Below, in pieces: positions 1,538 to 4,932 of a stretch of DNA of 24,304 bases (position 1 is the first letter of the stretch; each line of letters begins with the position of its first letter). The DNA comes from a virus. Under the pieces are notes generated by a model. It was not told the origin of the DNA, made no database searches, and was given only the letters and a program-made list of their open reading frames with translations. The position numbers were made by a program, and so were the translations under genes. Location: positions 1 through 24,304 of the IMG/VR virus record IMGVR_UViG_3300023104_000017; one strand, given 5' to 3'.

Positions 1538-1562
1538 GTTACTATATTAGTAACGTAATTAA
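1538..1562 (+). promoter_or_regulatory. Candidate promoter with overlapping 17-bp palindromic operator
   Basis: TATATTAG at 1543-1550 resembles the -7 element TAnnTTTG, and transcription would start near 1557. The box sits inside a perfect hyphenated palindrome, GTTACT-atatt-AGTAAC (1538-1554). The 25-base stretch is a near-copy of 1235-1259. In that earlier copy the right arm is altered, so only this one is a full palindrome. A dimeric repressor or activator site over the promoter is plausible. Confidence 0.4.
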
Positions 1563-1666
1563 TCAGGATAGCCAGCTTCTAATTACGCTATCAAACAATA
1601 TTTTAAAAACCCTTATTGCCTAAGTACCGAGTAGAAGCCGGGAAAGGGCGGTAAGGGTTTTATTAT
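1557..1666 (+). ncRNA. Candidate structured RNA / leader with two hairpins and complementary loops
   Basis: Two hairpins lie in the gap before the HNH gene. Hairpin 1 pairs 1567-1572 (GATAGC) with 1587-1592 (GCTATC) around a 14-base loop. Hairpin 2 pairs 1606-1620 with 1647-1661 over 15 pairs, two of them G-U, around a 26-base loop. The loops contain GCTTCTA (1575-1581) and TAGAAGC (1632-1638), perfect 7-base complements that could form a kissing interaction. The second stem is followed by a TTTTATTATTAT stretch and then, 9 bases on, the HNH start codon. The stem includes the purine-rich AAGGG that could serve as a ribosome site. It may be an independent small RNA ending at an intrinsic terminator, or a cis-acting leader. 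Confidence 0.55.
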
Positions 1667-1669
1667 TAT

Positions 1670-2308
1670 ATGAACTATAAATTAACCAAACAATTAAAAA
1701 ACCATCCAAAGCATTTTATCCATGTTGGCGGTTTTGTTTTTAAGGTAGCGTCTCCTAAAAAGGATATTATTTTAATAAATGAAATTGATGAAAAAACTAA
1801 AAATGTTTTTGTTACGGTTGATGGCGAAAAAATGAACTTGCTATATCTTATGATAGAGAATTTCATGCCCGATGTTAAACTTACCCAGCAGTTTAAGTTT
1901 TCCTTACAAAACGAAACAAATTATATGCCTTTAAATGGCATAATTGTAAGTGACTTTGTTTCAGAAATTTCAGATGAAATAAACAATACAATTGTTAAAT
2001 TTAACTGCAAACAACGTGCCGACGGGGCAAATCAAAGAGCAAGACACTTTATTACACCTATCCATGTGGCACAAACACTTAAAACACATAATTTTAAATG
2101 TGTTTATTGCGGATGTGAATTAAATCTTAAAAATTGGCACTTAGATCATTATATACCATTGTCAAGAGGAGGTGCTAATGTTTTTGGGAATATAGTCCCT
2201 GCTTGTGCAATTTGCAACACTATGAAAGGTGCTATTAATCCGATGGAATTTTATAAAAAGTGCTGTACAATAGCAGATAAATTTATGTTTAAACCTGCTA
2301 CTGTATGA
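1670..2308 (+). CDS. HNH endonuclease (homing-type)
   Basis: This 212-aa protein carries a C-terminal HNH nuclease domain at about residues 142-185: Cys144-Cys147 and Cys179-Cys182 bind the structural zinc, Asp159-His160 form the catalytic core of the beta-beta-alpha-metal fold, and Asn174 is the conserved Asn. The N-terminal half contains a V-D-G-E-K-M-x-L-x-x-L-M-I-E-x-F-M-P stretch (about 50-67) that resembles the DNA-contact segments of phage homing HNH proteins. It overlaps the primase gene by ATGA and is preceded by the structured leader at 1566-1661. Free-standing HNH genes in phages are usually mobile. The coupling to the primase could also mean it has been recruited into replication or recombination. 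It lacks a RuvC domain, so it is not IscB. Confidence 0.88.
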   Translation: MNYKLTKQLKNHPKHFIHVGGFVFKVASPKKDIILINEIDEKTKNVFVTVDGEKMNLLYLMIENFMPDVKLTQQFKFSLQNETNYMPLNGIIVSDFVSEISDEINNTIVKFNCKQRADGANQRARHFITPIHVAQTLKTHNFKCVYCGCELNLKNWHLDHYIPLSRGGANVFGNIVPACAICNTMKGAINPMEFYKKCCTIADKFMFKPATV

Positions 2309-4611
2309 CCGATACTACATTTTTAGACCTGTTTCGTATGGGTCTTATGCCTATACCATTAAAATGGAACACGGAAACCAAGTCGGCTGATAGTCATTAC
2401 ATAGCACATAGTGAAATAACACCTGAAACTTATAATGAGGCTACTTTTGGCACCATTATAAAAGGATTGCATGAAGCCAATGGTATGGCTATTAAGTTAT
2501 TCAGCCCATTTGGATGCGTTGACTTTGACCTGAAAAATACAGAAGATAAGTCTGTTTTTGATAATTGGAAACGTGCGGTTGCTTCATTAGATGATGGTAT
2601 TTTTGAAAAGGTTTGTATTGAAACAACCCGCAACGGTGGCTATCATGTTTATATTAAGTATAGTAAATTATCATCTAAAATTAGTTTAGCTAAAGAAGAA
2701 AAAGGCGAAGAAGTTATAGCTATTTATACTGGCGGAACTTTAGCCTATTGCGATCCAACCCCTGGCTATGAAATGATACATAATGAGTTTAATGATTTAT
2801 CTGAATTAACAGATGATCAGTTTGACATTATTACATCATGTGCAGCCCACTTTGATAAATATAAACCCGAATTAAATAGTCAATCAAATGAGATTGTAAA
2901 ATCATATCCTTTAGAATATGAAAGCCTTTGTTTGCAATTTGATAGTAAATGCACAGATGAAATATTTACCCACTTATTATCTGAAATTGGTTTAGTTGTA
3001 GCAGATAAATATAAAACACGGGCAAAGGATAAGTTTATACCGATGTTACGTGTAGGATCAAAAGCAACTTATTCGGCAAAGGCTTATTATTCTACAAAAA
3101 ACCTGCAATTATTTACATCTTCAATAGCCGGGTTTCCTTGCTTTAATGACCGAATCAATAAAGACGATACATCATGGAACTTAAGCCCGACTAAAATACT
3201 ATTTTATAAAAACGATAAAGATTGGATATTAACAGTTGAAGAAATAATATTATTGTGTGAAAGCGCAGGGATTGAAATTATTGCGCAACAACCCGTAACC
3301 AATCAGCCATTAATAAAAGAGGATAGACTAAAGTTTCCTTATGACATTTTTCCAGATGCAATTTTAAATTTCATTAAAGGTCAATTTATTCAGCATGATT
3401 ATTTGGGCGGTTTTGCTTTAACGGCTGTATCTACTTTAATTGGCAACTCTTGTCGGCTTAGAGCTAATGCAGGTTATTTTGTTAAACCTATTTTGTATAT
3501 GACGGTTGTTGCTCCGCCTGGGGCATCTAAAACTCCAGCCATGAAAGCTATATATAAGCCTTTGGAATTGATTGATGATATGTTTTATAAACAATATCTG
3601 CATGAGAAAAAAGATTATATCATTAAACTTTCAGAGTATAAAAATCAAAAAAAAGGTGACGGTATAACCGAGCCTACAAAACCCGTAATGCACCAAATGC
3701 TAATTAAGGACAGTACCATAGAAATGGTTATAAAAATACTATCTTTTAATCAACAAGGTTGTTGCCTTTATGCTGATGAGTTTGCTGGTTTTATGAAGCG
3801 CATGAATAGATACGGTGACGGTGATGAGTTGCAAAAATGGTTGGAACTTTGGAGTGGGTCGCCTGTATTGATGCAGCGTATAAGCAGGGATGAGGATAAG
3901 GTGGAAAATCCATTTTGCACAATTGTTGGTGGTATTCAGCCTGGAGTATTAGATATTTTAAGTAGTGATGCAAATGAGCATAATGGGTTTTTCCATAGGT
4001 TTTTATTCTTATACCCTGAGCCTGAATATAAACCTGACTGGACACAACGGGATTTTCCTTTAGAACTACAAACAGAATACTATAACCTGATTGATACTAT
4101 AAATGAGTTTAGGGATAAAGACCGTTTATACACAATGTCAAATGAGGCTAATTCTTTATACGCTGAATGGTTTAATAATAAAAACCGTAAATATAATGCC
4201 AGTCAGTCCGATCAGGTAAAGGGTATCATTGCTAAGTACCAAGACTATTGTTTACGTTTCTGCTTAATTATTGAGGTTATGAATAACCCAAATAGTTATA
4301 GCAATACAATATCCATACAAAGCATGGAAAGGGCTATCAGGTTAACTGAATACTTTTTAGGTAATATGAATAAGGCCATGAAGATATTAACGCCTGTAAC
4401 GCCCTTAGATAAGCTTACAGGCATTAATGAAAAGTTTTATAACTCACTACCTGAACAATTTTCAGCATTAAAAGCCATAGAAATAGGCCGAGAACTTAAG
4501 ATGAAAGACAATAATATCCGTTCCATACTTTTAAGATGGTGTGATAAAAAAGGACAAATTTTAGATAAGAAAGGAGCGCAAAGTAGTGCAATTTATAACA
4601 AAATTTACTAA
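2305..4611 (+). CDS. Primase-helicase: PrimPol domain fused to DUF3987 ATPase
   Basis: This 768-aa protein probably primes and unwinds DNA at the phage origin. The N-terminal part resembles an AEP-type bifunctional primase/polymerase, with the metal-binding pair Asp73-Phe-Asp75 and His114 in a G-G-Y-H-V-Y context. Residues about 345-600 match the DUF3987 helicase-like ATPase family: Walker A is A-P-P-G-A-S-K-T (403-410) and Walker B ends in Asp491-Glu492. The last 80 residues look like a winged-helix domain that could bind DNA. The start overlaps the HNH stop by ATGA. An iteron-like array begins 30 bases after the stop, the expected relation between an initiator/helicase gene and its origin. 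I am confident in the ATPase; the PrimPol assignment is somewhat less certain. Confidence 0.87.
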   Translation: MTDTTFLDLFRMGLMPIPLKWNTETKSADSHYIAHSEITPETYNEATFGTIIKGLHEANGMAIKLFSPFGCVDFDLKNTEDKSVFDNWKRAVASLDDGIFEKVCIETTRNGGYHVYIKYSKLSSKISLAKEEKGEEVIAIYTGGTLAYCDPTPGYEMIHNEFNDLSELTDDQFDIITSCAAHFDKYKPELNSQSNEIVKSYPLEYESLCLQFDSKCTDEIFTHLLSEIGLVVADKYKTRAKDKFIPMLRVGSKATYSAKAYYSTKNLQLFTSSIAGFPCFNDRINKDDTSWNLSPTKILFYKNDKDWILTVEEIILLCESAGIEIIAQQPVTNQPLIKEDRLKFPYDIFPDAILNFIKGQFIQHDYLGGFALTAVSTLIGNSCRLRANAGYFVKPILYMTVVAPPGASKTPAMKAIYKPLELIDDMFYKQYLHEKKDYIIKLSEYKNQKKGDGITEPTKPVMHQMLIKDSTIEMVIKILSFNQQGCCLYADEFAGFMKRMNRYGDGDELQKWLELWSGSPVLMQRISRDEDKVENPFCTIVGGIQPGVLDILSSDANEHNGFFHRFLFLYPEPEYKPDWTQRDFPLELQTEYYNLIDTINEFRDKDRLYTMSNEANSLYAEWFNNKNRKYNASQSDQVKGIIAKYQDYCLRFCLIIEVMNNPNSYSNTISIQSMERAIRLTEYFLGNMNKAMKILTPVTPLDKLTGINEKFYNSLPEQFSALKAIEIGRELKMKDNNIRSILLRWCDKKGQILDKKGAQSSAIYNKIY

Positions 4612-4641
4612 TAATCAGTTAGTTATGATAAAAAACACCTC

Positions 4642-4932
4642 TTGTGCAGTTGTGCAAAACTTGTGCAACTCACTTGCACAACAAAAAACAGCCTTAACGA
4701 TACCAAAAACACGGTTTTTAAGCCAGTTGTGCAACTTGTGCAAACTTTTAGGCATCTTTAAATATCTTGTGCAACTTATGCAAAAAACACAGGATAATAA
4801 TTTTAAACTATATATATATTATATATTAATTAGGCTAAAAATCTGCACAACTGCACAAATGTTGGATAACTTGTTAATAATCATTAAATTACACTTGTGC
4901 AAGGCTTGCACAACTCATGCACAACTGCACAA
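4642..4932. repeat. Iteron-like TTGTGCAA array with AT-rich core: candidate origin or operator
   Basis: Fourteen copies of TTGTGCAA or its complement, allowing a base or two of variation, fill this 323-base gap. Plus-oriented copies start at 4642, 4650, 4661, 4727, 4736, 4767, 4776 (TTATGCAA) and 4895. Minus-oriented copies (TTGCACAA / TGCACAA) start at 4674, 4844, 4852, 4906, 4918 and 4926. Left of the middle nearly all point one way, and right of it nearly all the other. Between the halves is an almost pure A/T run (about 4797-4832). Iterons flanking an unwinding element behind the helicase gene are the layout of a phage replication origin; a multi-site operator is the alternative. The open frame across it (4586-4942) has unusual composition imposed by the repeats and is not treated as a gene. 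Confidence 0.75.
4797..4832. other. AT-rich segment, candidate DNA-unwinding element
   Basis: This 36-base stretch has only one C and no G, and includes an alternating TA run. It sits between the two oppositely oriented halves of the TTGTGCAA array. Such an element is where strand opening begins at many iteron origins. The inference depends on the array being an origin. Confidence 0.45.

Follow-up and report, generated by a model that had tools for sequence, protein, structure and literature searches.

The window analyzed here is the whole 24,304-nucleotide virus record IMGVR_UViG_3300023104_000017 of IMG/VR (24.3 kb), and all positions are counted from its first letter. It carries genes of Bacteroidota-type phages that were identified with Pfam (DUF3127, HNH and DUF3987 primase), followed downstream by terminase-like and portal-like ORFs that were read from their translations. 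An HNH endonuclease gene is located at 1670-2308 on the + strand (Pfam HNH, 1.8e-11) and a DUF3987 primase/helicase gene lies on the same strand at 2305-4611 (Pfam DUF3987, 3.3e-56; ORF coordinates). The primase gene start overlaps the HNH stop and therefore the two genes are probably on one transcript. No close relative of the HNH protein was found among the viral contigs, and DNA comparison of this region with phage isolates gave no match. In the gap after the DUF3987 gene (4640-4932), direct and inverted repeats cluster around TTGTGCAAC / GTTGCACAA, which looks like an iteron or origin region.

Immediately upstream of the HNH gene, on the same strand, lies a predicted RNA leader of roughly 105 bases, in the order promoter box, P1 hairpin, A-rich linker, P2 hairpin, T tract and ATG. 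The promoter box, TATATTAG (1543-1550), is of the Bacteroidota -7 type (TAnnTTTG-like) and the same box precedes the leaders of relatives. In P1, the 5′ arm GATAGC (1567-1572) is the exact complement of the 3′ arm GCTATC (1587-1592), and the pairing is part of the minimum-energy fold. Loop 1 holds the segment GCTTCTA (1575-1581), whose equivalent covaries in relatives and which is the exact complement of TAGAAGC in loop 2 (1632-1638), so that the two hairpins may kiss. The A-rich linker AAACAATATTTTA (1593-1605) is unpaired in the fold and is the counterpart of AAAATATTAA in relatives. The arms of P2 (1606-1620 and 1647-1661) were defined by RNA folding and by their complementarity. On top of P2, AGUA (1623-1626) is the 5′ strand of an internal loop of loop-E-like type (AGUA/GAA), a layout shared with some of the relatives; the P3 5′ arm CCG (1627-1629) pairs with 1639-1641, where relatives have GAG/CTC or GGG/CCC; and the P3 3′ arm CGG is followed by GAA, the 3′ side of the loop-E-like module (1639-1644, read from the sequence). 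The T-rich tract TTTTATTATTAT (1658-1669) runs from the end of P2 up to the ATG at 1670, and 8 bases separate P2 from this start codon.

A first-pass annotation of this DNA had described the two stems and their exactly complementary 7-base loop segments, and both were read directly at these positions. The 15-pair stem that it reported is in place, with 13 Watson-Crick and 2 G-U pairs (87% complementary). The purine-rich stretch that it noted in the second stem exists as well, but this GAAAGG is a conserved part of the apical module and no special ribosome site. A competing stem (1554-1561 with 1580-1587) is an exact 8-base complement, but no conserved counterpart of it was noticed in relatives. 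RNA folding of the leader gives both hairpins in the minimum-energy and in the centroid structure. The fold z-scores are -3.85 for 1555-1669 and -4.94 for hairpin 2, with 0 shuffles equally stable, and the opposite strand folds far less well (z = -1.5).

Relatives of the leader were gathered via homologues of the primase and of DUF3127, and then by pattern scans of viral contigs (promoter plus linker). They show the same layout at other genes, in unrelated sequence and with matched loops: before a DUF3127 gene (L002, GTTGAAG/CTTCAAC), before another primase-operon gene (L005, TTGCGCT/AGCGCAA), before an HNH-like gene (L004, AGCGTTCAGTT/GACTGGACGCT, including G-U), before a helicase-like gene (L010, TTGAGAGG/CCTCTCAA) and before the gene of a CxxC protein (L009, AAGGCGAT/ATCGCCTT, read by eye). 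The list comprises 47 leaders with 32 different loop pairs, counted by their loop-1 segments, and in most relatives the 5′ end carries a P1 of 4-9 pairs. The apical layout of AGUA, 3 pairs, loop 2, 3 pairs and GAA is also found in L163, L219, L394, L451, L452, L454, L462, L468, L475 and L478. The cultured phages with the leader are Flavobacterium columnare phage FCV-1, Flavobacterium sp. LMO6 phage hemulen6-2 and Cellulophaga baltica phages phi10:1 and phi19:1, in which direct testing is possible. In hemulen6-2 a leader with the loops GTGAGACG/CGTCTCAC is found at a small gene shortly before the primase; at the orthologous position of the primase operon phi19:1 has a leader with the loops GTACGAC/GTCGTAC, and in phi10:1 one was seen by eye, with a slightly different box.

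Among the 42 leaders with a box, the variant TATATTTG occurs in 26 and the variant of the window in 3 (also L002 and L005). A TTG is present 17-22 nt upstream of the box in 17 of these 42 leaders, against 15% of control boxes; the window box has no TTG at this spacing. The promoter region of the window is itself repeated at 90% before the DUF3127 gene (1240-1259 versus 1543-1562), with a second copy of the TATATTAG box at 1240-1247 and no hairpins after it.

Covariation was examined in the loops of a subfamily. The pattern used to collect it describes only P1 and the linker and places no constraint on loop 2 or on part of loop 1. It matched 39 contigs with 23 distinct leaders, and a perfect 7-base loop partner was found downstream in all 23. 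A first MAFFT alignment of divergent leaders (A1) misaligned the stems and so was dropped. In a second alignment of 19 subfamily leaders (A2) 209 of 209 cells are paired, 5 of the 7 kissing pairs show changes on both sides, and the covariation score is 0.428, compared with 0.077 after shuffling and no more than 0.054 after sliding. P1 is invariant within this subfamily and thus gives no covariation signal there, but it differs between subfamilies (e.g., GATAGC/GCTATC in the window). The linker AAAA[C/T]ATT is present in 19 of 19 A2 sequences, although it also belongs to the search pattern. L453 and L463 share a DUF3987 gene and match almost completely on either side of the leader, whereas the leaders themselves are wholly different, each being internally matched. 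Judged from these sequences, the loops of relatives remain complementary while their sequence changes. The kissing complex that the first-pass annotation had proposed as possible gains strong support from compensatory change in the leaders of relatives. We regard it as nearly certain, from this sequence evidence, that the feature is a structured RNA under selection.

Whether the copy in the window belongs to the same family was addressed in several ways. A covariance model (R1), which was built without the window, does not recognize it (best overlapping match 9.8 bits, E 2.4). R1 finds L412, L205, L188 and L384 and also misses L002, L005 and L219, and therefore it covers one branch and describes no family-wide defining feature. 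A structural descriptor (promoter box, P1, loop match, P2 and T tract) places the window 12th in a scan of 2.98 Mb of phage DNA and gives 2 matches on reversed control DNA at ≥55, the score level of the window; it was written after the feature had been seen and serves as a consistency check. Not included in the original observation was the apical module, AGUA-3bp-1 to 3 nt-loop 2-3bp-GAA, which marks one branch of the family. It occurs a single time over both strands of the 24.3 kb, at 1623-1644, and its loop holds the kissing segment. In all DNA examined, 13 of 160 module matches, from 11 sources with the window among them, come with a kiss; reversed DNA gives 2 of 211. Further features of the window copy are a box of the form TAnnTT[T/A]G (TATATTAG) directly upstream, loops that are complementary over at least about 7 bases (GCTTCTA/TAGAAGC), a long P2, a T tract and a same-strand start codon within about 46 nt. 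The two tests that are independent of R1, the descriptor and the apical module, favor membership of the window leader, which rests on architecture.

One could ask whether such hairpins simply arise by chance in A/T-rich DNA. A lone exact 7-base match between loops of 14 and 26 bases has a probability of about 1% (8 x 20 / 4^7), and the window copy taken alone could be a look-alike. For the family, chance is ruled out by the covariation in relatives. The matches in all 23 subfamily leaders, the replacement between L453 and L463, the leaders of the isolates, the descriptor and the apical module speak against it too, and the probability that we assign to chance is close to negligible.

The position of the leader relative to genes is constant. 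In 47 of 47 leaders the next ORF after P2 is on the same strand and starts after 3-46 nt (median 10). A T-tract score of at least 3.29 is reached by 72% of the 47 leaders and by 1.4% of control positions (4.22 in the window); this strength is partly selected, since some leaders entered the list through scores in which T tracts count. Leaders found by pattern, unselected for the T tract, mostly have strong tracts too. About six leaders have a weak T tract (L168, L478, L451, L461, L454 and L394) and therefore strong termination is not universal. The proposal that the RNA has its own promoter and ends in a terminator-like hairpin is likewise strongly supported. At L453 (around 2440-2490), and at the same locus in L463, a second, separate hairpin of terminator type overlaps the leader's promoter box, and one T run is both the end of the upstream operon and the lead-in to the leader promoter. 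Such a hairpin just before the promoter was also found in L205. It follows from these separate hairpins that hairpin 2 belongs to the new transcript.

The downstream proteins were long enough in 44 cases, and 41 of them, including that of the window, were scanned with Pfam, the 3 left out being near copies or fragments. Homing-type endonucleases (NUMOD4/HNH_3, HNH, GIY-YIG, NUMOD3 and T5orf172) make up 20 of the 41, a share that is inflated by the subfamily search pattern. The remaining proteins include DUF3987 and BT4734-like primases, DEAD helicases, DUF3127, DUF6291 and Mom; one leader links homing endonucleases and replication operons. In relatives of FCV-1 the leader and a NUMOD4/HNH gene lie between a RusA-like gene and the next gene, whereas in the otherwise collinear FCOV-F16 the RusA-like gene runs straight to the next gene, without leader and endonuclease. 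Therefore leader and endonuclease behave as a unit at this F. columnare locus, either both present or both absent. Phage V156 (L447, 1436-1783) has a different small HNH gene at the FCV-1 endonuclease site, without a leader. From these comparisons, endonuclease genes have targeted the FCV-1/V156 intergenic site repeatedly.

The first-pass annotation had left a choice between a cis-regulator and an autonomous RNA. The cis leader is favored because of the same-strand position just before the start codon, which is constant in relatives, and we consider that the RNA is probably a cis leader of the following gene. Were it instead an autonomous small RNA gene, a stable RNA of ~105 bases would act in trans, and the next gene would be a neighbor with another promoter or with leaky read-through. 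The own promoter box and T tract and the compact fold fit such a gene, as does hairpin 2, which is weakly similar to TEG147, an RNA of Staphylococcus. On the other hand, an ORF start follows on the same strand within 46 nt in every leader, leader and gene come and go together in the F. columnare phages, and no other promoter-like site was found on the + strand before the primase in a sigma-70 scan, which does not cover Bacteroidota promoters. An autonomous RNA is thus unlikely.

Comparison with known RNAs, as the first-pass annotation had advised, gave no family: in Rfam 15 no match at gathering was found for the window leader or for 17 loci of relatives. Known ribozymes, riboswitches and other Rfam families gave none at gathering either, and the hits below threshold to snoRNA or Listeria families were weak and are ascribed to chance. 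In RT-14 (RF02921) only hairpin 2 matches (26.3 of 48.1 bits), and RT-14 was not found in 395 Bacteroidota genomes, in a search that recovered no positive control. TEG147 (RF03535) reached 20.8 of 56.1 bits, far below gathering, and its strong copy has no matching kissing partner. The likeness of both to the leader lies in hairpin 2 alone, with its GAGUA...CGAAA or UAGUA...CGAA module; a terminal T run and a place in front of a gene are further likenesses of TEG147. The TEG147 copy, L487, has the GAGUA...CGAAA hairpin module as in L475 (9537-9586) and no kissing partner. No paper on the motif was found in an open-access search. Host chromosomes gave no member convincing by eye in a pattern scan of genome contigs, and R1 found none in 395 Bacteroidota genomes under strict filters and with no positive control. 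On these comparisons, the leader family is so far undescribed. It would be a new RNA family for Bacteroidota phages, and little is known of how phages control their genes in this host phylum.

RNA hairpins are known before T4-type homing endonuclease genes (I-TevI, segB, mobE and seg43), and in seg43 of phage 25 the hairpin is immediately upstream of the ribosome site (PMC2988022). These resemble the leader in having a stable RNA structure right before an HNH or GIY-YIG start codon, where it likely limits expression. However, they are single hairpins that hide the Shine-Dalgarno site only in read-through transcripts, while the leader family has two hairpins with kissing loops, its own promoter and a T-tract end, and also leads replication genes. 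For I-TevI the own promoter is inside or after the 5′ arm, whereas the window promoter box at 1543-1550 precedes both hairpins in the sequence. The I-TevI model, which the first-pass annotation had invoked, gains no support, as the purine-rich stretch is part of the apical module and the hairpin lies within the leader's own transcript. Another hypothesis is that hairpin 2 blocks ribosome entry, or that the mRNA is protected by the 5′ hairpin, with the T tract being just an A/T-rich start region. The T4 precedents (PMC2988022) and the stem that ends 8 bases before the window ATG agree with this, but T tracts far above control are unneeded for translation control, and we regard this hypothesis as highly unlikely.

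A mechanism that fits the data better is that of a conditional terminator. RNA polymerase would start at the promoter at 1543-1550, hairpin 1 lying at the likely 5′ end, and the loop-loop helix would form in the nascent RNA as loop 2 emerges, before the P2 3′ arm is made. Because loop 1 can meet loop 2 before that arm is transcribed, the kiss comes at a point where it can influence the termination decision, and the folded domain may set how often hairpin 2 works as an intrinsic terminator. The HNH protein and the coupled primase would then be made only via regulated or partial read-through of hairpin 2. A T tract and stem directly before a start codon, in a transcript starting just upstream, fit a terminator that has to be passed. 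No alternative antiterminator pairing was found. We lean slightly towards a conditional terminator as the main action. Overall, we infer with fair confidence that the feature is a ~105-base 5′ leader of a recurring Bacteroidota phage family with a conditional intrinsic terminator.

Another option is that the folded leader binds the RNA polymerase leaving the promoter, so that it passes hairpin 2 and later terminators. This would be akin to the RNA-mediated antitermination of HK022 (PMC6256539). The likeness to put is that of a structured leader directly after early phage promoters, at several operons in one phage, with a conserved shape and free sequence, and the weak T tract of some leaders would fit as well. 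The host phylum, however, is another one. HK022 put RNAs are not known to have kissing loops or a terminator-like end, and a put-like action seems quite unlikely. Under the conditional-terminator reading, the unit of promoter and leader may move with homing endonuclease genes and would give them their own expression at any landing site. Many free-standing endonuclease genes of T4 are promoter-less; the present case shows that such genes can bring along, as one cassette, a promoter and a structured leader of their own.

Pairing between loops that is tied to termination in the leader of a replication operon, with loops that vary between relatives, also occurs in antisense-controlled attenuators such as plasmid pT181 RNAI/RNAII, phage P4 CI RNA and P1 c4 RNA. 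In those the partner loop is on a separate RNA, whereas in the leader family both loops are in one RNA. One may speculate that the loop pair is a specificity tag, with a terminated leader RNA kissing the same-pair nascent leader of another phage copy and so causing termination of the replication operon. We see this as distinctly improbable; if true, it would be RNA-based immunity or dosage control, and would explain the differing loop pairs within a phage and the wholesale replacement of leaders between near-identical phages. Several phages have more than one leader, each with its own pair (two in G002, two in G003, four in G013 and two in hemulen6-2). The mean duplex energy is -10.0 kcal/mol for own loop pairs, compared with -1.7 kcal/mol for unrelated pairs, which hardly bind.
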